From positions 1-11,471 of the forward strand of contig CAJOFG010000092.1 in NCBI GenBank assembly GCA_905233965.1: a DNA stretch of 11,471 bases, in the 5' to 3' direction. A program made the translations under genes and the position numbers. This stretch comes from an uncultured Selenomonadaceae bacterium (lineage in GTDB: Bacteria > Bacillota > Negativicutes > Selenomonadales > Selenomonadaceae). Positions 1 through 11,471 of this stretch are shown here, in pieces (position 1 is the stretch's first letter; each line of letters starts with the position of its first letter). The notes beneath the pieces were generated by a model. It was not told the origin of the DNA. It did not search any database and saw only the letters and a program-made list of their open reading frames with translations.

Positions 1-470
1 GCGAAGGCGCGCATATCGTCTTTGGAAATTTTCACTTCGTCAGCCGCGATAAGCATATTTTTTTCGTTCAGCCAATCGACTTTGCCGCCGACAAGTTTCG
101 CGCCGGAATCTTCGTCAACTACGGCGACGTTGCCTTCAACGTGAATGTCTTTCGTGTTCCGGTCGTAAGTTCCTTTATCGGCAACGAGGATTAAAACTTT
201 GTCCTCCTCCTGATAAAATCTGCCGGTTAAGTGTTCCAATTCGGCTTTCTGCGTTTCCGTGTTGATGACCATTTTTTCGGAATCGAGCTCCCAAATTTTT
301 TTGCCGTCCTTCTCTTCGGAAATCGTGTTGCCGCTGTATTCCATTGTCTTGGGAGTTTCAAGTTTATCATCTTGCGGCGGCGCGTCCGGCGTCGTGCGTA
401 TCGTCCAAATGACGAGGCAAACGAAGAACAATAAGATTATCCCGCCGATTATTTTGCCTTTACGTTCCAT
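1..470 (-). CDS. lptC: LptC-like LPS export protein, 3' end cut off by the window
   Basis: LptC is the single-pass inner-membrane, periplasm-facing component of the LptBFGC-A machine that carries lipopolysaccharide across the periplasm. The visible 156 residues start with a short basic tail (MERKGK), one hydrophobic segment at about residues 7-24, then a polar, proline-containing linker. A beta-rich region follows with the repeated 'K..Y......I..EG.V.V.D..G..L.....W' pattern typical of the LptA/LptC (OstA-like) fold, including GTYDRNTKDIHVEGNVAVVD at roughly residues 98-117. The reading frame is open to the left edge, so the C-terminus is missing. The ATG lies directly after the TAA of the upstream acyltransferase, with AGG about 11 bases before it, so it is almost certainly in the same operon. 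lptA and lptB would be expected further left. Assignment rests on fold pattern and neighbours. Confidence 0.85.
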   Translation of the reverse strand, partial: MERKGKIIGGIILLFFVCLVIWTIRTTPDAPPQDDKLETPKTMEYSGNTISEEKDGKKIWELDSEKMVINTETQKAELEHLTGRFYQEEDKVLILVADKGTYDRNTKDIHVEGNVAVVDEDSGAKLVGGKVDWLNEKNMLIAADEVKISKDDMRAF

Positions 471-1388
471 TTACTGACTACCTGCTTTTTCACTTTTCAC
501 CGTGTGGTGTTTATTTTCTTTTTTCATCTCGATAGGTGTATTCCATCTCTTTTGAAACCAAATCCATTGAGTCGGGTGTTCGCGAATGACGTTTTCCAAA
601 ATCCGCGTCATTTTTTCGGTGAACCGGAATAAATCTTCGTCGGTGTTCCCGGTATCTTCAAAGCGCATGGGTTCCCGGACTTCGATAACGTGTCTGCCGT
701 TCGGTTGGCGAATTATGAACATCGGGAGAACCGGTGAATTGAATTTTTTTGAGAACACGGCGGGTCCCATCGGAGTTGATGCGGGCTTGCCGAGAAAGTC
801 GATAAACGCTCCGCCCGGTCCGGCGTCTTGGTCGGCGAGGAATCCCAAAACTTTTCCCTTCTTCAGCGCACGTCCCGCCGCCAGCAATTCACTTGTCCCG
901 CGATTGAAAATTTCAACTTTGACTGTCGCCCGTAAATCGTCCAATGCCCGCGAATAATCCCGGTTAGGTTGCAGTTTCGCGATCGCCGTTATCGGGAAAC
1001 CCATTAAAGCAAGTCCGCCGCTCATCCATTCCCAAGTGCCGACGTGTCCGGTTAAAACAACCGTTCCGTGTCCTTCGGCAAGTACCTTTTCGATTCTCTC
1101 CGGGTGGTCTACCGTGACGTAGTCGGACAAATTTTTCGTCGCCAAATTCGGCATATATAAAATTTCCAGCATATTCCGCGCAAGGTTCACGAATGATTCT
1201 TTGACGAGTTTGCGCGCTTCCCGTTCGGAAATTTGCAGAGCCGGCATCATTTGCGCGACGGCACGTTCACGCTGTTTTTTTACCAGCAGATAGTACAGGT
1301 TTCCCAAAATTCTGCCGAGAAAAAGGAGCAGGTCATACGGGAGAAATCTGATTATTCTGCTCAGAATCATAAGTGCATTGTACAACAT
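471..1388 (-). CDS. lpxL: Lipid A late acyltransferase (LpxL/HtrB family)
   Basis: This is a membrane-associated acyltransferase of the lysophospholipid acyltransferase family that transfers an acyl chain from acyl-ACP to Kdo-lipid IVA. The 305 residues have the usual family length. Visible features are a hydrophobic N-terminus (about 4-36), the catalytic HX4E motif at H115-E120 (GHVGTWEW), the conserved FLADQDAGPGGAFIDFLGKP block near 183-202 and the C-terminal HPTQWIWFQKRW block near 271-282. The extreme C-terminus is charged and probably disordered. The ATG at 1388 is 23 bases after the kdsC stop with only a weak GGTG-type ribosome site. The stop abuts the lptC start. Its place after the Kdo genes agrees with the order of the pathway, because LpxL enzymes prefer Kdo-bearing lipid A. 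Whether it adds laurate or another chain, and whether it acts like LpxL or LpxM, cannot be read from the sequence. Confidence 0.9.
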   Translation of the reverse strand: MLYNALMILSRIIRFLPYDLLLFLGRILGNLYYLLVKKQRERAVAQMMPALQISEREARKLVKESFVNLARNMLEILYMPNLATKNLSDYVTVDHPERIEKVLAEGHGTVVLTGHVGTWEWMSGGLALMGFPITAIAKLQPNRDYSRALDDLRATVKVEIFNRGTSELLAAGRALKKGKVLGFLADQDAGPGGAFIDFLGKPASTPMGPAVFSKKFNSPVLPMFIIRQPNGRHVIEVREPMRFEDTGNTDEDLFRFTEKMTRILENVIREHPTQWIWFQKRWNTPIEMKKENKHHTVKSEKAGSQ

Positions 1389-1411
1389 TTTTTAATCACC
1401 AAGAAATTTTT

Positions 1412-1984
1412 TTATTGATTGACGTTTGAAAAATTTTCGTCCGGCTCCGCGACGCTCATGTATCGCCGGATAATTTCTTCCCACTTGTCTTGAGATTTTA
1501 AAATAAATTCCAGAATTTCCCGGACGGCACCGCGCCCGCCGAAATCTTTTGCAACGTAATGAGCGACAGATTTTACTTCCGGAGCCGCATCGCCGACAGC
1601 CGCACGAAAACCGACTTGCAAGAGTACCGGCAAATCAATCAAATCATCGGCAATGTAAGCAATTTCCTCATCGCGAAAATTCAATTCGGCTTTCAAGTCT
1701 TTGTATGCGCCGCGCTTGTTCATGCAACCCTGTTTGACGGCGGAAATTTTTAAACCCTTCGCCCGGTTGGAAGTGCAAACGGATTCGCGTCCGGTGATTA
1801 TCGCGGTTTTAATTCCGACTTCGTGAGCAAGGGTTATCGCCAAGCCGTCACGACAATGAAACGATTTAAAAAGTTCGCCGCTTTCCCCGATGTAAATTCC
1901 GCCGTCGGTCAAAACGCCGTCCACGTCGAAAATTATCAATTTAATTTTTTTTGCACGCTCTATTGCGTCGCTTGAAAAATTCAT
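1412..1984 (-). CDS. kdsC: 3-deoxy-D-manno-octulosonate-8-phosphate phosphatase KdsC
   Basis: KdsC is a cytoplasmic HAD-superfamily phosphatase that removes phosphate from Kdo-8-P to give Kdo. HAD motif I is FDVDGVLTDG, with nucleophile D20 and acid/base D22. Motif II is the threonine of IITGRES (T65). A lysine-containing segment lies around 90-98, and motif IV is ADDLIDLP with D113/D114 and D117. There is no separate cap domain, as expected for this C0-type tetramer. At 190 residues it is slightly longer than many homologues because of a polar C-terminal tail. Its ATG overlaps the stop of the second MqsA-like antitoxin by four bases (ATGA), so it is probably translated by re-initiation; a GGGAG also lies about 10 bases upstream. 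In a plain kds operon it would directly follow kdsD, but here a toxin-antitoxin module separates them. Confidence 0.95.
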   Translation of the reverse strand: MNFSSDAIERAKKIKLIIFDVDGVLTDGGIYIGESGELFKSFHCRDGLAITLAHEVGIKTAIITGRESVCTSNRAKGLKISAVKQGCMNKRGAYKDLKAELNFRDEEIAYIADDLIDLPVLLQVGFRAAVGDAAPEVKSVAHYVAKDFGGRGAVREILEFILKSQDKWEEIIRRYMSVAEPDENFSNVNQ

Positions 1985-2235
1985 GCAAAAGCAACTCCCG
2001 ACGTTTGAAAATTTTCATGCCCCGATTTTTCCCGGAGTCTTGCCTCAATTTTCATAACTTCATTTTCGGATACTTCCAAATCTTTTTGCGAAAAAATTGC
2101 TTCGCCGTCGCCTTCCGGATACCAACCCGGCATATCAACGACAAATTTTTCTCCCTTGTACGAAAATTCTCTTAAGCGAACATCACGGCGCAAAGTTTCT
2201 CCGGTTTCAGGGTGAATCAATGTATCTTTACTCAT
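1981..2235 (-). CDS. MqsA-like antitoxin, short form, second copy
   Basis: This 84-residue protein resembles the N-terminal, toxin-binding half of MqsA-family antitoxins: HPETGETLRRD, then an FSYKG strand, VDMPGWYPEGDGEA and a following helix. In classical MqsA four cysteines (CPxCG and YCxxCGE) bind zinc. Here these positions are H8, T11, P40 and D43, so no zinc site is expected. The C-terminal helix-turn-helix that lets E. coli MqsA bind its own promoter is absent; the protein ends soon after residue 70. It follows its paralogue with a 4-base ATGA overlap, has its own strong GGAGGT site 6 bases before the ATG, and overlaps kdsC by four bases. Family assignment relies on the adjacent MqsR-like gene as well as the sequence pattern. 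Neutralising activity is inferred. Confidence 0.75.
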   Translation of the reverse strand: MSKDTLIHPETGETLRRDVRLREFSYKGEKFVVDMPGWYPEGDGEAIFSQKDLEVSENEVMKIEARLREKSGHENFQTSGVAFA

Positions 2236-2489
2236 GCCGGTACCTCCGAAATATTTTCGTCAGATTCAAAGTAATCCGATTTTTCCCGGAGTCTTTCTTT
2301 TACTTCGTGAAGTGCTCTTGACGGAATTTCCATATCCTCCTGAGAAAAAAGTGCTTCGCCGTCGCCTTCCGGATACCAACCCGGCATATCGACTTTTATT
2401 TTTACGCCCCGATACTCAAATTCAAACGGACGAATATCGCGCCGCAAAGTTTCTCCGGTTTCCGGGTGAATCAATGTATCTTTACTCAT
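2022..2489 (-). repeat. Tandem gene duplication of the short antitoxin, 254-base period
   Basis: Positions 2022-2235 and 2276-2489 align without gaps at a constant offset of 254 bases. Long blocks are identical or nearly so: 2099-2136 against 2353-2390, and about 60 bases covering the ribosome site, start codon and first 17 codons (2190-2247 against 2444-2501). The middle and the 3' end are more diverged. This supports a tandem duplication of one antitoxin gene together with its translation signal. Confidence 0.85.
2232..2489 (-). CDS. MqsA-like antitoxin, short form, first copy
   Basis: This 85-residue paralogue of the next gene starts with the same residues (MSKDTLIHPETGETLRRD) and shares the VDMPGWYPEGDGEA block at 33-46. 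The zinc-ligand positions are again replaced (H8, T11, P40, D43), and the DNA-binding domain of long MqsA proteins is missing. The two copies differ most in the strand before residue 30 and in the C-terminal helix and tail. This suggests duplication followed by divergence where the protein contacts its partner or is degraded. A strong GGAGGT site lies 6 bases before the ATG, 15 bases after the toxin stop. The toxin-first order matches mqsR-mqsA of E. coli. With no DNA-binding part, it is unlikely to autoregulate by the classical route. Confidence 0.75.
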   Translation of the reverse strand: MSKDTLIHPETGETLRRDIRPFEFEYRGVKIKVDMPGWYPEGDGEALFSQEDMEIPSRALHEVKERLREKSDYFESDENISEVPA

Positions 2490-2504
2490 GCCGGCACCTC
2501 CAAT

Positions 2505-2795
2505 TTATTTTTCCTTAAACGAAAGTAATGTAAACTCCGAAAGCATTTCCTTCGTGAATTTGACGTAAAGAACAAAATTTTCATAGGGAACGTGATAAAC
2601 GTCTTGCCAAACTTTATGGTTTTTGTACGAAGTCATGGATTTATAAAAATGTTCTTTCTTCATGGTCGAAACTACCATGCGAACATCTGAAAGCTCGAAT
2701 CCCAATTCAAGAGCGTTGTTTCCTGCCGTTGAAGTGATAATAAAATCTGAACGCTTGAACTCTTCCAAGTCGTAGGTCGGCTTATATTTTTCCAT
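2505..2795 (-). CDS. mqsR: MqsR-like mRNA interferase toxin
   Basis: This 96-residue protein closely follows the plan of E. coli MqsR (98 residues), a RelE-fold ribonuclease that cleaves mRNA, mainly at GCU. It opens with MEK, carries HFYKSMTSYKNHKVWQDVY at about 49-67 (E. coli has DFYKSMTTYSDHTIWQDVY) and ends in SFKEK as MqsR does. Residues reported as important in E. coli, K56, Q68 and Y81, correspond to K52, Q64 and Y77, so an active toxin is plausible. The ATG lies 7 bases after the stop of the kdsD C-terminal frame. The nearest ribosome-like site (AAGGG) is 17 bases upstream, which suggests weak or coupled translation, in contrast to the strong sites of the two antitoxins behind it. It sits inside the kds operon with no promoter that I can see. 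Confidence 0.9.
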   Translation of the reverse strand: MEKYKPTYDLEEFKRSDFIITSTAGNNALELGFELSDVRMVVSTMKKEHFYKSMTSYKNHKVWQDVYHVPYENFVLYVKFTKEMLSEFTLLSFKEK

Positions 2796-2802
2796 GACGT
2801 TT

Positions 2803-3057
2803 TTAAACGATACCCTTGCTGAGCAAGTCGGTCAAATGAATCATGCCGACGGGATTTTTTTCCGAATCGACAACCGGCAAAACGGTTACCGGTCGCGGCT
2901 TGTGTTTCTCCATGACGGAGAGAGCCGCCGCCGCCAATTTGTCCGCGCTGATAATCAAAGCGTCGCTGTGCATGATATGTTCAACCGGTTCGTCGATAAA
3001 ATTTATATCCTTCTCCAACGCCCGGCGAATAATTCCGTCCGTGACTATGCCGACATC
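2803..3057 (-). pseudogene. Detached C-terminal CBS-domain part of KdsD, out of frame
   Basis: This stretch encodes the rest of a KdsD protein in the frame one base back from the upstream part. It reads [17 protein letters not shown], then EPVEHIMHSDALIISADKLA and PVVDSEKNPVGMIHLTDLL, ending in SKGIV before TAA. This matches the end of the first CBS domain and the whole second CBS domain of typical KdsD enzymes. The frame has no good start: a TTG at 3018 has no ribosome site, and a TGA lies just above 3057. Joined to the upstream 240 residues by a -1 shift it gives 324 residues, close to the 328 of E. coli KdsD. It is therefore a frameshift remnant or a sequencing error rather than a gene. 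Confidence 0.8.
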
Positions 3058-3776
3058 TCATCGACGACCGATACTGCGCCAAGACCTTTTGCAGTCATTT
3101 CAAAAAGCGCATCCTTGGCAGTCGCGCCGATTTTTACAATCGGATTGTCTTCGCCGCTGTGCATGACATCACCGACGGTAAGCAAAAGTTTTCTGCCGAG
3201 TGCGCCGCCCGGATGGAATAAGGCGTAATCTTGAGAAGTAAATTTTCTTTCGTCCATCAACGCCATTGCTATCGCGTCACCCATTGCAAGCGTCGCCGTC
3301 GTCGAGGAAGTCGGCGCAAGACCCAGAGAGCAGGCCTCACGCTCCACGCCGATATTTATAAAATGGTCGCTGTTCCTGCCGAGCGAAGAAGTTTTCCTGC
3401 CGCACATCGCGATAATCTGCGCCCCGATCCTGCGAATTATCGGAAGGATATTCACAATTTCGGAGGATTCGCCGCTGTTGGAAATTGCGATAACAATATC
3501 GTTTTCCGTTATCATTCCCAAATCGCCGTGATAAGCTTCGGCGGGGTGCATGAAAAATGCCGGCGTTCCGGTTGATGCGAGAGTTGCGGCAATTTTTCTG
3601 CCGACGTGTCCGGACTTGCCCATACCGCTGACCACGACGCGCCCTTGACAATTTAAAATCGACTGAACCGCCGCGACAAAATCATCGTCAACGCGGGGAA
3701 TTAAATTTTCCACCGCCGCCGCTTCCATTTTTAAAGTTTCTATTGCTCTTTCTTTTATCATTTCAAACACCGTCAT
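3045..3776 (-). CDS. kdsD: Arabinose-5-phosphate isomerase KdsD, SIS domain (frameshifted)
   Basis: KdsD converts D-ribulose-5-phosphate to D-arabinose-5-phosphate, the first committed precursor of Kdo, in the cytoplasm. The 243-residue frame carries a complete sugar isomerase (SIS) domain: GMGKSGH (51-57), [11 protein letters not shown] (77-87), SNSGES (99-104), [11 protein letters not shown] (155-165) and HPGGALG (188-194). A first CBS motif starts near 204 (VGDVMHSG). Translation stops at TAG (3045-3047), three codons after VVDE, although homology continues in another frame down to 2803. A 1-base or about 10-base deletion near 3055-3058 would explain this. Some natural KdsD homologues lack CBS domains, so the truncated protein may still work. 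The ATG overlaps the kdsA stop by four bases and has no ribosome site of its own, so translation is probably coupled. Confidence 0.9.
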
Positions 3777-4594
3777 GAAAATTTTTTAACAGTCTGATGA
3801 ATTGCCAGGACTCTCGTCAAAAGTTTTTCCAAGTTGTCAAGGCAAACCATGTTCGCGCCGTCCGAAAGTGCTTCGTCCGGATTGTCGTGGACTTCAAGGA
3901 AAAGTCCGTCAATGCCGACAGCCGCCGCCGCACTCGTCAGGTATTCGACAAATTCACGCTGACCGGAGGAAGTTTTTCCGCCGCCGCCCGGAAGTTGTAC
4001 GCTGTGCGTCCCGTCAAAAATTACCGGGTAACCGAAACTCCGCATTATCGGCAGTCCGCGCATATCGACGACCAAATTGTTGTAGCCGAAAGAATTTCCG
4101 CGCTCCGTCAGCAAAATTTTTTTCGTGCCGCTCATTTCCAACTTCTCGACAACATTTTTCATGTCGTTCGGGGAAAGGAATTGCCCTTTCTTGACGTTGA
4201 CGACCGCGCCGGTTTTCGCGGCGGCGACAAGCAAATCCGTTTGCCGACAGAGAAAAGCCGGAATTTGTACGATGTCCGCAACCTTCGCAACCGGTTCCGC
4301 CTGATAAGTTTCGTGAATGTCGGTAACAATCGGCACGTTCAATTCCGATTTAATTTCGGCGAGAATTTTTAAACCTTCCTCCATGCCGGGTCCGCGATGA
4401 CTTTGCAAAGATGAACGGTTCGCCTTGTCGAAGGACGCTTTGAAAATGTACGGGATACCGACGTTGCCGGCAATTTCCTTCGCCCGTTTCCCGATTTTCA
4501 AACTGCGTTCAAAACCTTCCAGAACGCAGGGACCCGCAAGCAGGACGAGTTGCCCGCCGCCGAATTCGATATTTTGAATTTTAACTTTGTTCAT
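3773..4594 (-). CDS. kdsA: Kdo-8-phosphate synthase KdsA, metal-dependent type
   Basis: KdsA condenses phosphoenolpyruvate with arabinose-5-phosphate to form Kdo-8-phosphate. The 273 residues match the family in length and throughout the sequence: AGPCVLE (20-26), [12 protein letters not shown] (51-62), [13 protein letters not shown] (91-103), [12 protein letters not shown] (111-122), [15 protein letters not shown] (133-147), [18 protein letters not shown] (162-179), [12 protein letters not shown] (193-204). C23, H197, E234 and D245 occupy the metal-ligand positions known from the Aquifex enzyme, where E. coli KdsA has Asn in place of Cys. This points to the metal-dependent class. GAGGG stands 7 bases before the ATG and overlaps the kdsB stop. 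The stop overlaps the kdsD start (ATGA). Confidence 0.97.
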
Positions 4595-4604
4595 GTTTCA
4601 TCCC

Positions 4605-5339
4605 TCAAATTTTTTCTTCGCGATAAATTTTATTCACCAGTTCCAAATCTTCCGGAGTGTCAACGCCGATAAATTTGCAGTCGCTCTTAATCACCCGGAT
4701 TTTATAACCGTTTTCCAATGCCCGGAGCTGTTCCAGCGATTCGGTCTGCTCCAAAGCCGTCGGTTCCGTTTTCGAGTAGTTCAGCAAAAATTCTCTGCGG
4801 TAAGCGTAAATTCCGATGTGCTTGTAAACTTTCGACTTGCCGGAATTTCGCGGGTAAGGGATTAACGACCGGGAAAAATACAGCGCGTCATTGTTTTTGT
4901 CCGTCACGACTTTTACGTTGTTGGGATTTTTCATGTCGGATTCTTCGCGCAATTCCGTTGCGACCGTCGCCATTTGAAGTTGTTCGTCCTTCTCAAACTC
5001 CGTGACGAGTTCGTCAATCAAACTGCCTTCAATCAGCGGCTCATCTCCCTGCACGTTAATTACAACGTCAACGTCGGGAAATTTTTCGGCGACTTCCGCG
5101 AGCCTGTCCGTCCCGGTTTTATGGTCCGCCCGCGTCATCACGGCGCGCCCGGAATTTTCTTCTACAGCTTGAAAAATTCTTTCGTCGTCCGTCGCAACTA
5201 TCACGTCGGAAATTTTTTTCGCAAGTTTCGCCCGTTCAAACACCCGGCAAATCATGGGCTTGCCGCAAATGTCTTTCAAAGGTTTTCCGGGCAGTCGCGT
5301 GGACGCATACCTTGCCGGAATTACGCAAATTGTTTTCAT
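4605..5339 (-). CDS. kdsB: CMP-Kdo synthetase KdsB
   Basis: KdsB activates Kdo with CTP to give CMP-Kdo, the donor used by WaaA. The 244-residue protein, of normal family length, shows PARYASTRLPGKPL (8-21), TDDE and HKTGTDRL (73-80), NVQGDEP (95-101) with a metal-binding Asp, PYPR (161-164), YKHIGIYAYR (172-181), EQTESLEQLR (197-206) and GVDTPEDL (225-232). The start was set at the ATG at 5339 because the protein then begins directly with MKTICVIPARYAS, as KdsB proteins do. AAGGA lies 9 bases upstream and the previous stop is one base away. A longer in-frame start at 5399 would overlap lpxK by about 60 bases with unrelated residues. The kdsA start follows 10 bases after its stop. Confidence 0.97.
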   Translation of the reverse strand: MKTICVIPARYASTRLPGKPLKDICGKPMICRVFERAKLAKKISDVIVATDDERIFQAVEENSGRAVMTRADHKTGTDRLAEVAEKFPDVDVVINVQGDEPLIEGSLIDELVTEFEKDEQLQMATVATELREESDMKNPNNVKVVTDKNNDALYFSRSLIPYPRNSGKSKVYKHIGIYAYRREFLLNYSKTEPTALEQTESLEQLRALENGYKIRVIKSDCKFIGVDTPEDLELVNKIYREEKI

Positions 5340-5340
5340 G

Positions 5341-7863
5341 TCAATCAGTCCTTGTCCCGAAAAATTTTTTGCAATTATCGCGGTCGCCCAATTTATCACT
5401 CAACCGGCGGCGAAGTTCATCTTTAAATTCCCGACCGCCCGTTTGGAATTTGACTTCGACGCAGATAACGAAAATGGGGATACTCCATTTTGCCTTCGCG
5501 ACCTCTTCCGGAATTTTAACCGCGTCCTTTTCGGTAACGACGATTGTTTCCGCGCCGAGAGCGTCCGCCTGTTGCAAAATATCCTTCATTTCCTTCATGG
5601 TGTATTCGTGATGATCCGGGTAGCGCAAACTTTCAATCAGCACCGCGCCCAAGTCCCGAAGCGTCCTTTCAAACGACGCCGGATTTCCTATCGCCGAGAC
5701 CGCCATAATTTTTTTGCCGGAAATTTCTTCAACGTCTATTCCGTCCTGTGACAAGTCCTCGAACCAATCCGCGAGCGGCATGAAACAGCGCGGTTGATGA
5801 ATACTTTCCACAATCTGCGCCGCCTCGTTGTATTTGTGTACCGTGTCGCGAATGTATTCGCCGGCTCCGGATTCCGCCTGATCAACTTTCGTTATCAAAC
5901 AAACATCGGCGCGGCTGATATGCGACATCGATTCGCGCAAAGTTCCGCGCGGCAAAACGTGACCGTTGCCGAAAACATTAACCGCATCGACAAGCAGAAT
6001 ATCCATATCGCGGACAAGTTGCCAATGTTGATAGCCGTCGTCCAAAATTGCGACTTCCGCTCCGAAATGTTCAATCGCGTACCGACCGGTAACCGAACGC
6101 TCCGCACCGATTAAAACCGGCACGTTCGGCAAATGTTTCGCCAACATATAGGCCTCGTCGCCGGCCTCCGCCGCGTCCATGTGCAAATTTTTTCCGTCGG
6201 AAACAATTCCTATTTCGCCCTTCCACTTCGCCCGGTAACCGCGATTCAAAATGACGACGCGATAACCCATGTCGCGAATATCTCTTGCAAGTCGCTGAGC
6301 CGTCGGAGTTTTTCCCGTGCCGCCGACCGTGATGTTGCCCAAGCTGATGACGTAGCAATTCAATTTTTCTTTGCCGGAAATGCCGAGCTTATAACCGAGA
6401 AGGCGAATGTCAACCAAAGTTCTGTAAACCAGCGAGAAACAGTACAGGACGGCAACGACAAGGTGCATTGAAATTCCGTGAACCTCTTTGCTGTGAACGA
6501 GGTCGATAAAATAAGTTTGAAGGTTTTCGACTTTCTGAGTGGTGCGCGGGTGCTTGGCATTTTCCTTCGCCTCAAAGTCAGTCAAAACTTGGCGGAGAAG
6601 TTCGGCGGATTTTTTTGACGCGCCGCGATTCTCCCAAACGATTTTTAAAGTTTCTTCCTCAAGCTGTTTCCTTTTTTCCGGGTCGTCGAAAAGTTTTTGC
6701 GCCTCTTCGACTAATTCAGCCGGATTATTTACCGTGACGCAGGCGTTGCGATTTTTGAACAGCGTGTGAGTGTCTTTGAAGTTCTCCATGTGGTGACCGA
6801 CGATAATTGCTTTGCCGTGCGCCGCCGGTTCCAAAATGTTATGCCCGCCGTGAGTGACAAGACTGCCGCCGACGTAAATGACATCGCCGACGCTGTAAAT
6901 TTGTCCGAGTTCCCCTATCGTGTCGAGAATTATAATATCTTCATCGGCGGGAGGGCGTTTTTGCAATTCCGTCCGCGTGCCGACTTTTAAACCGGTTCTC
7001 TTGCAAAGGCTGATAACTTCGCGTGTCCTCAAAAGTTCACGGGGCGCGATTATCAATTTCGCCTTCGGATGATTTTTGCGAATCTCTTTGAACGCCCGAA
7101 GAATATAATCTTCCTCATTCCGGTGAGTACTTCCCGCAAGCAAAATTCCGTCGGCGGTTTTCAAGCCCATATCGGTTAAAATTTTTTCCCGCTCCTCCGG
7201 CGTAACGTCCGTGTAAGTCTGATCAAATTTCGTGTTGCCGGTAACCGTCACCAATTCTTTCGGCGCACCGAGTTGAACGATATAATTCGCGTCGATGGGT
7301 GACTGCATGGCAAAAAATTTGACCGTGCTTATCATGTCGGTCAAAATCGAGAACATATATTTGTAACGGCGAACGCTCTTTTCGGAAATTCGCCCGTTGA
7401 CCATCATAACCGGTATGTGAAGTTTTCGCGCCGTCATGAAAAAGTTCGGCCACAGTTCCGTTTCGACGTTCAGAAAAACACGCGGGTGTATCCTGCGCAA
7501 AACGGATGCCGCGACGAACGGCAAATCGAGCGGAAAATAAATTATACTGTCCGCGTCCTTGATGATTCGGTTCGCCATTTCGTAACCGCTCGTGGTGACG
7601 ACGGAAACCAAAATAGGGGACTTCGGAAATTCCTTGCGAAATTCTTTTATCAGCGGACTTGTCGCGACGATTTCACCGACCGACGCGGCATGAACCCAGA
7701 TACAATTTTTTTTCGCTACGGGATCGAGCGCACCTTCCGGGAAAAATCCCAGACTTTGCCGGATACGTTCGACAAAACCTTTTTCGCGAACCGAGCGAAT
7801 CAAAAATATCGGAATGATTATGACGACAACCAAAATTGCCGCGAGATTGTAAAGAAATTGCAT
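5341..7863 (-). CDS. WaaA-LpxK fusion: Kdo transferase and lipid A 4'-kinase
   Basis: One 840-residue frame joins two normally separate enzymes. Residues 1 to about 430 are WaaA/KdtA: an N-terminal membrane anchor (3-22), HAASVGE with the conserved Glu64 taken as general base in this family, VETELWPN (133-140) and the GT-B donor site GGSLVTHGGHNILEPAAHG (332-350). Residues from about 450 to 840 are LpxK: a hydrophobic N-terminus (466-480), the Walker A motif VGGTGKTP (513-520), LNRGY (539-543), AGDEAYML (567-574), DDGYQH (608-613), LPRGTLRE (637-644), DHHEYT (750-755) and VTEKDAVK (776-783). LpxK phosphorylates the tetraacyl disaccharide to lipid IVA at the inner face of the membrane and WaaA then adds Kdo, so the fusion joins consecutive steps. 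AAAGGA lies 7 bases before the ATG. A possible internal ATG at 6468, with AGAGG well upstream, could yield LpxK alone. No stop separates the halves. Confidence 0.93.
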   Translation of the reverse strand: MQFLYNLAAILVVVIIIPIFLIRSVREKGFVERIRQSLGFFPEGALDPVAKKNCIWVHAASVGEIVATSPLIKEFRKEFPKSPILVSVVTTSGYEMANRIIKDADSIIYFPLDLPFVAASVLRRIHPRVFLNVETELWPNFFMTARKLHIPVMMVNGRISEKSVRRYKYMFSILTDMISTVKFFAMQSPIDANYIVQLGAPKELVTVTGNTKFDQTYTDVTPEEREKILTDMGLKTADGILLAGSTHRNEEDYILRAFKEIRKNHPKAKLIIAPRELLRTREVISLCKRTGLKVGTRTELQKRPPADEDIIILDTIGELGQIYSVGDVIYVGGSLVTHGGHNILEPAAHGKAIIVGHHMENFKDTHTLFKNRNACVTVNNPAELVEEAQKLFDDPEKRKQLEEETLKIVWENRGASKKSAELLRQVLTDFEAKENAKHPRTTQKVENLQTYFIDLVHSKEVHGISMHLVVAVLYCFSLVYRTLVDIRLLGYKLGISGKEKLNCYVISLGNITVGGTGKTPTAQRLARDIRDMGYRVVILNRGYRAKWKGEIGIVSDGKNLHMDAAEAGDEAYMLAKHLPNVPVLIGAERSVTGRYAIEHFGAEVAILDDGYQHWQLVRDMDILLVDAVNVFGNGHVLPRGTLRESMSHISRADVCLITKVDQAESGAGEYIRDTVHKYNEAAQIVESIHQPRCFMPLADWFEDLSQDGIDVEEISGKKIMAVSAIGNPASFERTLRDLGAVLIESLRYPDHHEYTMKEMKDILQQADALGAETIVVTEKDAVKIPEEVAKAKWSIPIFVICVEVKFQTGGREFKDELRRRLSDKLGDRDNCKKFFGTRTD

Positions 7864-8094
7864 AAAAAAATCCTTTTCGGTTTATTTTAGGGCGTGTCGG
7901 TAAAGTAAGAATGTGCGCCGTGACGAGGAATTTTTTTGTCCGACGAGGAAAAATTTCGCAGTCGTATCGACATACGTCAAGAAATTTTGACAAAGTTCGG
8001 ACGGAAAAACAACCGTCATCGGCGTGCGTTCGTCTTTACCAATCCGTCCCAAGACGTATTTTATTTTACCGACGAACATTTTGCAACCGGGTAT
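7864..8094. other. Intergenic stretch with hairpin and short direct repeat
   Basis: This 231-base stretch separates the waaA-lpxK fusion from the repaired end of the PIG-L-like gene. I see no convincing gene in it. It contains GACGAGGAA twice (7922-7930 and 7942-7950), separated by T-rich and A-rich runs, and an imperfect inverted repeat at 7961-7978 (GTCGTAT / ATACGTC around a CGAC loop, 6 of 7 pairs). The arrangement looks like a mobile or dispersed intergenic repeat rather than coding sequence, but a single window cannot show copy number. Confidence 0.4.
7884..7911 (-). promoter_or_regulatory. Possible promoter of the waaA-lpxK/kds operon
   Basis: On the minus strand a TAAAAT (-10-like, 7884-7889) is preceded after 16 bases by TTCTTA (-35-like, 7906-7911). 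It lies 20 bases upstream of the waaA-lpxK ATG, which leaves room for the AAAGGA ribosome site at 7871-7876. The -35 match is weak. It is the best candidate I see for the long operon, but read-through from the gene upstream is also possible because no clear terminator separates them. Confidence 0.35.
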
Positions 8095-9688
8095 TCAACT
8101 CAGTTTAAGCGAACGGACTTTATCAATCCACTGCCAAATTTTGAATTGAATTTGTTCCGCGTCGCCGACACGCCGAACAATCGCCTTGTCGTAAATGTTC
8201 GGATTGCCGACAACTCCCGCCGTCAAAATAATTTCTTCGGCGTTCCCGAAATTTAAATTCGTCGCCGGTCAAAACTTCGCGCAAAAAAATTTTGTCGTTC
8301 GATTCCGCCGTGACTTTAACCGGTTCATCGACGCGGAAACGGTAAACGCCGATCGGAATTTTTTCAAACTCGTAAGGCACAAAATATCTGTAGAAAAAAT
8401 TTTTTCCCGTCGTCAACTTGATGAACGGCGAAATTGTTCTGCGCGGCTCCGGGTTGGAAAAAAATTCAAGTTCCGAAATGCCGAAATTTTTTCCGGACTT
8501 CACGACGGAAATTTCGACGCTCCGGGCAAAAATTTTTTCCGTGTCGAAAATTGCCGGGCGACCGTGTTCCGGTAAATTCATTTTAAATTCATTTATATTA
8601 TCCGAATAAATTCCGGATTTGTCAATGACCGGGCGCGGATTATCCGTGACAAAACGAAAATTTAATTTTGCCGGCTCCTCGTCGAAAATGTTGCCGTGAA
8701 CGGTGACGCGCCGAATTTGAACGGGTTCGGGAAATTTGACGAAGATTTTTTTTTCGGGATCGCTTTTCGCCGGCTGCCAAACGTGACTTTCAATTTTCGC
8801 CGGGAAATTTTTTTTCGCGTCGATAATTTTAAAGTCGCGAATTTTTTCGACGTTGCCGGACGTTGCGGAAATTTCGGAGGGGAAAATTAAATTGTCTGTG
8901 CGCCGGTAAAAAAATATTTCGTCGGAATTTAAAATTCGTGCGGCAGTCAAAATTTTTTTCCGGGACTTGTAAGCAAAAATCGCGGCGGCAACCGGATTGT
9001 CTTTCAAAAGAGATTGTCGGCAATGTTCGTTGACGGGGAAACGGACGCGATTTTCCCAAATGTAATTTCCCTTGCCGATTAAATCGAAATCGTAATTGTC
9101 GGTAACGCCGATTTGCGGCGGCTTGGTTTCCAAAAGATTCGGCGCGTAAAAATCGGGCGGCGCGGAAATTCCGGCGGCGTAAGCAAATTTTTTGTAAATC
9201 TCCGGGCGATAATCCGGATTTTCGGAAAAAATTTCTCCGACGACTTCCTCGAACGTCGAAGACAAAATTCCGGGTTCCGACAGTGAATCGAAGTCGGTGC
9301 AAAAAATTATGTCGGCTTGCAGTTCGGAAATTAAATTTTTCAATTCGCCTTTCAAATTTTTTTTCGCGTTCATGAAAATAATTTTCTCCGGTTTGACGTT
9401 CAAAATTTTCAGCGCGTCGAAAGATTCTTTCCGCAAAATTTTTGAGTCGCCGGGAGAGGAGAACGCGATAAAAATTTCAGCCCTTGCCGACGAAAAATTT
9501 AAAATCGTATTGCCGGCGATTGCAATTTCGTCGCCGGGAGTCGGAGCAAGAATTAAAATTCGCGTGCCGAAATATGAGCGGTCAAAAAAAGAATTGCCGA
9601 CAACGTCCGACTCCTCCGCGTCGATAAGTTCTCCGCAAAGTTCAAACGTGCCGCCAATCCCGTACTTAAAAATATTTTCGTTCTTCAT
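8095..9688 (-). pseudogene. PIG-L/LmbE-like protein with discoidin-like region, frameshifted near 3' end
   Basis: The first 480 residues read cleanly from the ATG at 9688. Residues 42-170 follow the PIG-L/LmbE fold: ILILAPTPGDEIAIAGN matches the signature APHPDDE, and AEIFIAFSSPG and ADIIFCTDFDS match later strands. Catalytic residues are degraded. The zinc His and catalytic Asp positions are T50 and G52, D53 remains, and the later HPDH-type motif is absent, so deacetylase activity is doubtful. Residues about 275-412 resemble a discoidin (F5/8 type C) domain, ending GISELEFF. After residue 480 the frame yields RERRRNYFDGG and unlikely residues to a stop at 8123. Skipping one base near 8248 instead gives GNAEEIILTAGVVGNPNIYD, then KIWQWIDKVRSLKLS, and a stop at 8095: 530 residues in all. 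No signal peptide is visible. A surface or polysaccharide role is only a guess. Confidence 0.7.
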
Positions 9689-9740
9689 CTCAAAAATTCA
9701 CCCGCTCACAAATTTTTCTTGAATTATAGTTGCATTTGCC
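9689..9740. other. Short gap between IS end and PIG-L-like gene
   Basis: These 52 bases hold the start region of the PIG-L-like gene. The only translation signals are GAG directly before the ATG and GGGTG about 12 bases away, both poor. If the IS ends at 9740, this stretch is the flanking DNA from which the guide of any TnpB omega-RNA would be copied. Confidence 0.4.
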
Positions 9741-9750
9741 ATAGACAAAT
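9723..9750 (-). promoter_or_regulatory. Possible promoter of the PIG-L-like gene at the IS edge
   Basis: A perfect TATAAT occurs on the minus strand at 9723-9728, 34 bases before the ATG at 9688. The nearest -35-like sequence (TTTGTC, 9744-9749) is only 15 bases away and belongs to the repeats at the presumed end of the IS607 element. If both parts are used, the insertion contributed half of this promoter. The weak -35 and short spacing keep confidence low. Confidence 0.35.
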
Positions 9751-9760
9751 ATAGACAAAC
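9741..9760. repeat. Tandem 10-base repeat at the presumed end of the IS607 element
   Basis: ATAGACAAAT and ATAGACAAAC lie back to back (9 of 10 bases equal). They are placed between the tnpB 3' end and the next gene, where the end of an IS607 element is expected. They are followed by CC at 9739-9740 (GG on the minus strand). IS607-type recombinases use a GG-containing core, so the element may end here. The exact edge is inferred. Confidence 0.5.
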
Positions 9761-9850
9761 ACATTTGAGAGGATAAACTCTCCGGCGTACTACACACCTC
9801 TATCCGATTGTAAAAACTTTCGGACTACATTTTAAAATCTGCTCTGAATA
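9741..9850 (-). ncRNA. Candidate omega-RNA (TnpB guide RNA) scaffold
   Basis: TnpB nucleases use a right-end RNA that overlaps the tnpB 3' end and runs through the element end into flanking DNA, which serves as guide. The DNA downstream of tnpB contains a GAGAG/CTCTC hairpin with a 6-base loop (9767-9782). An alternative pairing is possible between GGATA (fwd 9771-9775) and TATCC (9801-9805), compatible with a compact fold or pseudoknot. The 5' limit inside tnpB is arbitrary. No homologous RNA was compared; this is a prediction from position and structure. Confidence 0.3.
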
Positions 9851-11056
9851 TGTTGGTTCGATAATTTCAGCGTGATATTGAAAAAATTTTCGCATTATGT
9901 TCAAGGAACCGTTTACATCAGCGTTGAGTGGTGTAGCGAAATTTTTAGATTTATAAAGACCTCTGAATTTTCTGCGACCGCTGAAATTATGCTTGACTAA
10001 ATCCGCAGGTTTGAAGTCCGGAATGAAATCTCTGTCAAGAAAACTTGCCTTGCTGGTGTAAGATTCATCAATAATGTGAACTGAAATTCCTTCCAACGCA
10101 CATTTATAAGTGAGCATATCAATAAATCTGTTGAACGGTATCGAAACAAAATTTTGATTTGTTTTTCTGCCGAGATTCGTGCCTTGTTTCCACTGTTTAT
10201 TATGACCGATTATTAAATCCGTAACTCGGTGGGAAACTAATTGGTTCACGATAAAACGACTTGCCTTATGAAGATAATCAGAAATTTTGTTGTCGCGTTT
10301 TCTGCTCAAAGTCAACATTTTATTTGTTCTCGAAAAATCTTTGTCGTTAATTTTCCTTTGCCGACTGACCAATTTCGCATTTATTTTATTGAAGTGTTGA
10401 TTTACAGACTTCAGCGGTTTGCCGTTCACAATGAAAGAAGTTGAATCGGAAAAACTTACCGCCGCAAGATTATCAATCCCGATGTCTATGGCAGAAAATT
10501 TTCGCGGCTGTGACAAACTTTTCTCTTCCGGCAACTCCTTTTTATAGCCGACTTCAACAGTGATTTTTCGCTTTCTCGGAACAATTCTGACAAACTGAAC
10601 TTTTTCAACTTTGCTCTTGATGAAAACATTTGTCTGCGAAAGTTTAAGGTAACCAAATTTTGCCCTTGTTGAAACTGCTTGGCTTGTGTAATGCAAAATT
10701 TGTCTGCCCGTTTGTTTTTCGAGATATTGCGGAATTTTTACTTTTGCCTGATAGGAATCTTTGACTTTTAATTGCAAAAGTGCGAAAAATGACTTGAAAT
10801 TCTGATGTATCAACTTCAGCGTGTGTTGAGCAACTTTTGCCGGTAATGCTCTAAAATCTGCTTGATTAGTTTCTGCAAATTGACTCGTCAACTCGTTGTA
10901 AGGCAAAAATTTTTTTGTGGCAAAAAAGTTTTGTCGCACCACATAAAGTCCTGCATTATAGAGATTTTTTGACAAAAAACAAAGTCGGTCAAGTTCTTTA
11001 TATTCGGCACTCCCTTTGTGAAAATCGTGCTTTTCAACAAGTGTCATCGTTGACAT
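9800..11056 (-). CDS. tnpB: TnpB RNA-guided nuclease of IS607-type element, zinc-finger-less
   Basis: TnpB is the RuvC-type, RNA-guided DNA nuclease ancestral to Cas12, thought to help IS elements persist. The 418 residues show an N-terminal helical/OrfB-type region, RuvC-I AIDIGIDNLAAVSFSD with D191, RuvC-II HIIDESYTSKASFLD with E331, and RuvC-III NADVNGSLNI with D380, so the catalytic triad is complete. The paired CxxC motifs that normally lie between RuvC-II and RuvC-III are missing. A segment with SGRRKFRGLYKSK (359-371) takes their place, as in a known subgroup. The C-terminal tail after 390 is short. The gene overlaps tnpA by 23 bases. I used the ATG at 11056; another ATG at 11047 (MTLVEKHDF) also fits. 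The frame is intact, so the protein may be active. Confidence 0.9.
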   Translation of the reverse strand: MSTMTLVEKHDFHKGSAEYKELDRLCFLSKNLYNAGLYVVRQNFFATKKFLPYNELTSQFAETNQADFRALPAKVAQHTLKLIHQNFKSFFALLQLKVKDSYQAKVKIPQYLEKQTGRQILHYTSQAVSTRAKFGYLKLSQTNVFIKSKVEKVQFVRIVPRKRKITVEVGYKKELPEEKSLSQPRKFSAIDIGIDNLAAVSFSDSTSFIVNGKPLKSVNQHFNKINAKLVSRQRKINDKDFSRTNKMLTLSRKRDNKISDYLHKASRFIVNQLVSHRVTDLIIGHNKQWKQGTNLGRKTNQNFVSIPFNRFIDMLTYKCALEGISVHIIDESYTSKASFLDRDFIPDFKPADLVKHNFSGRRKFRGLYKSKNFATPLNADVNGSLNIMRKFFQYHAEIIEPTYSEQILKCSPKVFTIG

Positions 11057-11471
11057 TTTCCTCGACCGCCTCCGTTTCCAGTTTCTTTATAAGTTCTTCG
11101 GTTTTTCGTTTTGAGCGTCGTCTGCCATAAATTTTCGCACAAAAACTTGTAACCAGCGAAACAAAGTCTTCAAACAAATCTTCTTTGCTTTCCACTTCAT
11201 TTACTACGACAATCTCACATTTCGGATATAAAACCTTGATGTAGTTAAACCCGAACCGCGTCAATCTGTCTTTATGCTCGACTACTAATCTTGTCGCTTT
11301 TTTCTCGGTAAGGATTTTCATAAGTTTAGGTCTGTTATCATTCAATCCGGAGGCACATTCTTTTACAATTTCGTTTATAATCCAACCTTTGGCTAAACAA
11401 AACTGCTCCAGTCTTTTAGCCTGTGAATCCAAATTAGATTTATTTTCTGATGAACTCACTCTTGCATAAAT
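11034..11471 (-). CDS. tnpA: IS607-type serine recombinase TnpA, N-terminus outside window
   Basis: This is the transposase of the element, a small serine recombinase. The frame is open at the right edge. It begins with IYARVSSSENKSNLDSQ, in which the serine after ARV is the expected nucleophile. It continues with ECASGLNDNRPKL, VVEHKDRLTRFGF (the conserved arginine region) and FVSLVTSFCAKIYGRRRSKR, all hallmarks of the IS607 group. A GTG at 11459 could be read as a start but would remove the catalytic motif. The missing part should hold the MerR-like DNA-binding domain that precedes the catalytic domain in IS607 TnpA. The C-terminus is highly charged (KRKTEELIKKLETEAVEE), probably a helix used in oligomer assembly. 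Confidence 0.9.
   Translation of the reverse strand: MYARVSSSENKSNLDSQAKRLEQFCLAKGWIINEIVKECASGLNDNRPKLMKILTEKKATRLVVEHKDRLTRFGFNYIKVLYPKCEIVVVNEVESKEDLFEDFVSLVTSFCAKIYGRRRSKRKTEELIKKLETEAVEENVNDDTC

Follow-up and report, generated by a model that had tools for sequence, protein, structure and literature searches.

An MqsR toxin gene and two short antitoxin genes lie between kdsD and kdsC

We analyzed an 11,471-nt stretch of DNA from an uncultured Selenomonadaceae bacterium of the rumen genus Quinella (assembly GCA_905233965.1, contig CAJOFG010000092.1, positions 1 to 11,471; hereafter, the window), which carries a type II toxin-antitoxin module of the MqsR/MqsA kind whose antitoxins resemble only the N-terminal domain of MqsA. 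The gene order on the minus strand, to which all module coordinates refer, is kdsD, mqsR, antitoxin 1, antitoxin 2, kdsC. The MqsR-type ribonuclease (RNase) toxin of 96 aa is encoded at 2505..2795; antitoxin 1 (85 aa, 2232..2489) consists of the MqsA N-terminal domain only, and antitoxin 2 (84 aa, 1981..2235) is MqsA N-terminal-domain-like. Both lack cysteines and a helix-turn-helix (HTH) domain. A sequence-only reading had proposed an MqsR-like toxin and two MqsA-N-like proteins of 84 to 85 aa without zinc cysteines or HTH at 1981 to 2795, and we confirm both identifications. Across the sampled genus, we found neither the HTH nor the operator to which it would bind.

The genes are tightly packed. 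The stop of kdsD (arabinose-5-phosphate isomerase, 2803..3776, in two frames) lies 7 nt 5' of the toxin start, 15 nt separate the toxin stop from the start of antitoxin 1, and ATGA overlaps join antitoxin 1 to antitoxin 2 and the antitoxin 2 stop to the start of kdsC (3-deoxy-D-manno-octulosonate [Kdo]-8-phosphate phosphatase, 1412..1984). Shine-Dalgarno-like GGAGGT sequences precede antitoxin 1 (2496..2501) and, within the antitoxin 1 gene, antitoxin 2 (2242..2247). The two antitoxins share 67% identity across residues 1 to 73, with a ratio of nonsynonymous to synonymous substitution rates (dN/dS) of 0.43, and the duplicated unit takes in the ribosome-binding site.

The window toxin scores 83.2 bits against PF15723, for which the curated cut-off is 26.2 (E 1.9e-23), matches 3hi2_B (E 3.3e-10), and has K52, Q64, Y77, and K94. 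K52 and Y77 correspond to the catalytic lysine and tyrosine of Escherichia coli MqsR (K56 and Y81), which the available text of PMC9636575 describes as essential. Catalytic residues are retained in 32/32 Quinella MqsR matches, two of which are partial and one of which has an internal stop, and toxin dN/dS is 0.05 to 0.30 in nine pairs, with two further pairs saturated. Judged by its sequence, the window toxin belongs to the MqsR RNase family, and RNase activity and growth arrest are predicted. The module shares with E. coli MqsR/MqsA (PF15723/PF15731, TIGR03830) a toxin of the same family that keeps the K, Q, Y, and K residues, a toxin gene that comes first, and the antitoxin N-terminal fold. 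On the other hand, its antitoxins lack the HTH/dimerisation domain and the four zinc cysteines of E. coli MqsA, and the module has no operator and two antitoxins in tandem.

Antitoxins of the genus lack the HTH domain

The window antitoxins fall below the cut-offs of the MqsA models, scoring 21.9 and 21.4 against TIGR03830 (cut-off, 61.8), and one scores 13.7 against PF15731 (cut-off, 30), for which the other has no listed match. Single-sequence searches of PDB and PHROGs with the antitoxins gave no useful match. The AlphaFold2 model of antitoxin 2 (predicted local distance difference test [pLDDT], 84.3) matches the fold of the MqsA N-terminal domain, with residues 1 to 70 at 83 to 96 by block; residues 77 to 84 are under 50 and predicted to be disordered. 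When we searched the short antitoxins and, for 33 of them, up to 600 nt of downstream sequence for an HTH, no credible match was found (best E values, 0.87 and 1.8), and the HTH was detected in 50/50 HTH-bearing antitoxins used as a positive control. A cryptic DNA-binding domain, which the sequence-only reading had named as evidence that would speak against it, did not emerge from this search.

The toxin is present in 22 of the 66 genomes of the genus. Counting the MqsR neighbors of short antitoxins in 31 Quinella loci, the window included, we found that 31 of 32 toxin matches adjoin a short antitoxin; the single unpaired match is cut off by a contig end. All 34 MqsR-linked Quinella antitoxins (32 distinct) have the short form, at 73 to 89 aa compared to 131 to 178 aa in 50 HTH-bearing relatives, and antitoxin dN/dS is 0 to 0.24 in eight pairs. 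Tandem antitoxins also occur in genomes G060 and G028, and G033 has two consecutive toxin-antitoxin pairs. Among the best 80 loci of the named genome collection, 28 have short antitoxins, 50 have the HTH-bearing form, and for 2 none was seen. The 50 HTH-bearing MqsA proteins, from other Selenomonadaceae, proteobacteria, and cyanobacteria, resemble the short forms in their HPETGE and PGWY blocks and in adjoining MqsR; they differ in length, in the HTH, and in the operator described below. Together, these comparisons of domain architecture indicate that loss of the HTH is the distinctive trait of the Quinella MqsR-linked antitoxins. Since the database comparison took in the best 120 of 1885 matches, with the 7996 candidates sharing most words scored, it is possible that short forms occur outside Quinella. 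In the titles and abstract openings of the open-access literature, we found no HTH-less MqsA described, and we regard the Quinella module as a variant of MqsRA not previously described.

Antitoxin matches were found in 28 genomes of the genus, part of them partial or weak. Seven complete short antitoxins have no MqsR in the 4.5 to 6.5 kb covered for each (two each in G065 and G061 and one each in G036, G044, and G062), which shows that the antitoxin can outlive the toxin. Some of these solitary antitoxins (L256 to L262) presumably follow flagellar or cobalamin genes, as judged by eye. A further short-antitoxin fragment, comprising the C-terminal part and tail, lies elsewhere in the window's own genome (L264, 2374-2520).

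The absence of zinc ligands proved to be a separate matter. The window antitoxins contain no cysteine, and 2 of the 34 Quinella antitoxins have a single one, away from the ligand positions. The sequence-only reading had taken zinc-freeness to mark a distinct form; however, the full ligand set is also absent from 49/50 HTH-bearing antitoxins that adjoin the most closely related MqsR proteins. Only 1 of these 50 has both CxxC pairs, 22 resemble the short forms in having no ligand-site cysteine at all, and the remainder have a partial set. Since zinc-freeness is thus ordinary among near relatives, it does not define the short form, and we rejected zinc loss as the defining trait. Among 19 more distant viral-contig loci, all with an HTH and three with antitoxins matched by the HTH part alone, 15 have four or five cysteines and one has two. 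These distributions indicate that zinc was lost first and separately from the HTH.

The operator is missing together with the repressor domain

A search for inverted repeats 5' of mqsR revealed a 17-bp palindrome, TACACCATNATGGTGTA, which we then scored with a threshold of 12/16. It was found in 45/50 HTH-bearing loci (13/14 from Selenomonadaceae and 32/36 others) versus 0/29 Quinella loci, among which the best score was 10; one locus lying at a contig edge was left out of the scoring. In the window, the corresponding region 5' of mqsR (2796..2925) has a best match of 10/16. Composition shuffles reached 12 in 2/700 cases for the Selenomonadaceae HTH-bearing loci, 14/1800 for the other HTH-bearing loci, and 6/1450 for Quinella. 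Since the TACACCATNATGGTGTA consensus was built from HTH-bearing loci, their counts are not independent, whereas the absence from Quinella is, and the plain Fisher value of 8e-17 overstates the contrast because the loci are related. The palindrome shares its 17-bp length and an ACC-N5-GGT core with the Pseudomonas putida MqsA operator, TTAACCTGGAAGGTTAA, for which the available text of PMC5422877 reports binding demonstrated by electrophoretic mobility shift assay.

Taken at the level of sequence, the repressor domain and the operator are both absent across the sampled genus Quinella and appear to have been lost together. Since both are missing, the Quinella pair would have no means of repressing its transcription as MqsA does, and the earlier proposal of a non-autoregulating module is borne out insofar as self-repression is very probably gone.

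Two loci need separate mention. One encodes MqsR with an operator-like palindrome upstream (L141, 1016-1370); it was considered as an MqsR without an antitoxin, and this was rejected because an antitoxin frame is present but breaks off shortly past its start. The other (L146) has a short antitoxin and an operator score of 8/16 and belongs to genome RGIG6591, which also has an HTH-bearing locus (L143); it was excluded from the Quinella counts.

Self-regulation might instead be kept through a separate DNA-binding partner. The PaaR2-PaaA2-ParE2 system of E. coli O157:H7, in the available text of PMC8630535, offers a precedent, since PaaR2 represses a toxin-antitoxin module whose antitoxin, like those of Quinella, has no DNA-binding domain. 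However, the toxin of that system is of another family and its regulator has a gene of its own, whereas no regulator gene was seen to adjoin the Quinella module: we found no dedicated DNA-binding regulator in the operon, where the window neighbors are kdsD and kdsC (the rest of the genome was not searched). Moreover, inverted repeats 5' of mqsR in Quinella are not above chance on average (mean z of 0.29 versus 1.47 and 1.62 in the HTH-bearing groups). We therefore consider a retained partner very improbable.

Many short antitoxins end in a candidate protease tag

The C-terminal tail of antitoxin 2 (residues 72 to 84, GHENFQTSGVAFA, 1984..2022) is a putative degron on the basis of its pLDDT and of tail statistics. 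An [AS][LFSM]A end, a pattern chosen after the tails had been inspected, occurs in 21 of the 32 distinct Quinella antitoxins and 64 of the 121 short forms from the database (overlapping sets) compared to 0/50 HTH-bearing antitoxins and 0/233 same-locus open reading frames with a length of 150 aa or more. The enriched tail may be a protease tag. It is not the transfer-messenger RNA (tmRNA) tag of the genus, a candidate that we rejected: tags recovered from 18/20 loci all end in ALAA (own tag, ANEDYALAA), whereas the tails end in AFA, ALA, or SFA. Separately, six MqsA proteins from viral contigs (L281 to L286), which have an HTH and four cysteines, terminate in YALAS, YALGS, or NALAG, which gives a second SsrA-like look.

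Conservation of the tails extends beyond the last three residues, as in NNFELGNVAFA-like ends, and this would also suit a tail that makes an extra toxin contact, for example over the MqsR RNA path, instead of acting as a degron. Disordered antitoxin tails in general often bind toxins. On the other hand, 11 distinct Quinella antitoxins, antitoxin 1 of the window among them, do not have the pattern. For antitoxin 1, the codons of the last residues (SEVPA) run through the antitoxin 2 ribosome-binding site, and the usual tail has been lost as a result. The E. coli MqsA N-terminal domain also inhibits MqsR without such a tail (available text of PMC9636575), and we find the contact explanation somewhat unlikely. 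As for a degron, the available text of a review reports no C-terminal consensus or degron among antitoxin classes, MqsA included (PMC4963847); degradation by ClpAP and ClpXP has been reported for PaaA2 (PMC8630535, in the text available).

Few Quinella modules lie in the kds slot

The window module sits among genes for lipopolysaccharide (LPS) synthesis: lptC, an LpxL-type acyltransferase gene, kdsC, kdsD, kdsA, kdsB, and a waaA-lpxK fusion frame. The latter (window 5341-7863) is a single 840-aa frame that joins the Kdo transferase WaaA to the LpxK kinase. Farther along, a 521-aa frame (8123-9688) matched neither Pfam nor NCBIfam at the thresholds applied, and a TnpB-family RNA-guided nuclease adjoins a serine resolvase in an IS607-like element (9800-11471).

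In the best 30 kdsC loci of the genus, kdsD adjoins kdsC in 23, and three of the slots between them are occupied: by toxin-antitoxin-antitoxin in the window, by antitoxin before toxin in G023 (L042, 2879-3407), and by a relic in G035, where the beginning of the toxin leads straight into an antitoxin with a frameshift. A kdsC plus kdsD tree groups the three carriers within a single clade of eight genomes (support, 100/100) but needs at least two changes; the five remaining genomes of the clade have no module in the slot. Since the window and G023 toxins are long branches that the toxin tree does not place, that tree cannot separate one kds-slot insertion from several; the module may have entered the slot once, long ago, and later been lost from some genomes, or it may have entered repeatedly. 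The window kdsD, the sole kdsD match in its incomplete (86%) source genome, is split across two frames, and this may reflect either a real mutation or an assembly error.

The sequence-only reading had tied expression of the module to the kds operon and LPS synthesis. The position in the kds slot stands for the window, but only 2 of 31 loci lie there, plus one relic, and the window kdsD is frameshifted. Recruitment of the module to the kds operon as a way of making toxin and antitoxin levels reflect LPS synthesis would fit the tight packing, 7 nt past kdsD and overlapping kdsC, and the confinement of carriers to one clade. However, given how few loci occupy the slot, the fellow clade members without a module, and the broken kdsD, we judge this quite improbable.

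That Quinella modules ride host operons more generally is only suggestive (7/27 versus 0/14, p 0.075). A scan of window 1900-4700 found promoters and terminators at chance levels (2 promoters versus 2.8 expected; 6 terminators versus 4.1) and no credible internal promoter in the module. In E. coli, mqsA has two promoters of its own within mqsR, outside autoregulation (PMC6918082, in the text available). Since these internal promoters are not autoregulated, a cell that loses the repressed promoter would not necessarily run short of antitoxin.

The occupied slots also bear on the possibility that the module is a decaying remnant, with an antitoxin truncated since the toxin no longer matters and kds-slot copies disappearing. 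The G035 relic, one Quinella toxin with an in-frame stop and one truncated, and the frameshifted window kdsD could be read in this way. However, the short form is the only antitoxin seen beside MqsR in the genus, the catalytic residues are kept in all 32 matches and the pairing in 31 of them, and dN/dS is low in both genes. Decay is, in our assessment, improbable.

A pair that would work without self-repression

We consider it likely that the MqsR and MqsA-N of the Quinella module form a functional pair that does not repress itself, is transcribed from host promoters or from constitutive ones, and is balanced by antitoxin dose and perhaps by proteolysis. The short antitoxin would be an MqsA cut down to its toxin-binding N-terminal domain. 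In the available text of PMC2791442, E. coli MqsA residues 1 to 76 alone rescued growth, formed a 1:1 complex with MqsR, and did not bind the promoter, and in that of PMC9636575, the same fragment blocked mRNA from MqsR while the active site was still open to mononucleotides. This engineered MqsA-N is of near-equal extent to the natural short antitoxins, although it is a laboratory construct that keeps zinc and has no acquired tail. By analogy with it, and given the pairing and low dN/dS, the short antitoxins probably neutralize MqsR, and they would do so by binding the toxin and keeping mRNA out. Expression would come from whichever promoter lies upstream, the kds operon in the window, or from a constitutive promoter. 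The toxin-antitoxin balance would then be set by antitoxin dose, through tandem copies and translational coupling, and by turnover, with the disordered [AS][LFSM]A tail as the candidate protease tag; here, we infer both constitutive expression and proteolysis of the antitoxin.

A broader proposal, which we put forward tentatively and do not favor outright, is that the whole genus swapped self-repression for protein turnover: the HTH and operator were lost, an SsrA-like C-terminal degron was gained, the module became free to sit 3' of housekeeping genes, and solitary antitoxins were left behind. If true, the genus would offer a sequence-level view of the origin of antitoxins without a DNA-binding domain, and should the tail turn out to be a degron, this antitoxin class would have one, unlike the picture in the available text of the review (PMC4963847).

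Autoregulation by the antitoxin is regarded as a hallmark of type II systems, and the Quinella form departs from it. Compared with what the sequence-only reading had proposed, the loss of self-regulation has stronger support and a wider reach, extending across the genus. Since the ancestral form with HTH and operator persists in neighboring genera, while the derived form occupies a single genus, it is possible to date the loss and to put it to the test. Altogether, two traits that are often conflated can now be separated, with zinc binding appearing to have become dispensable well ahead of HTH loss.
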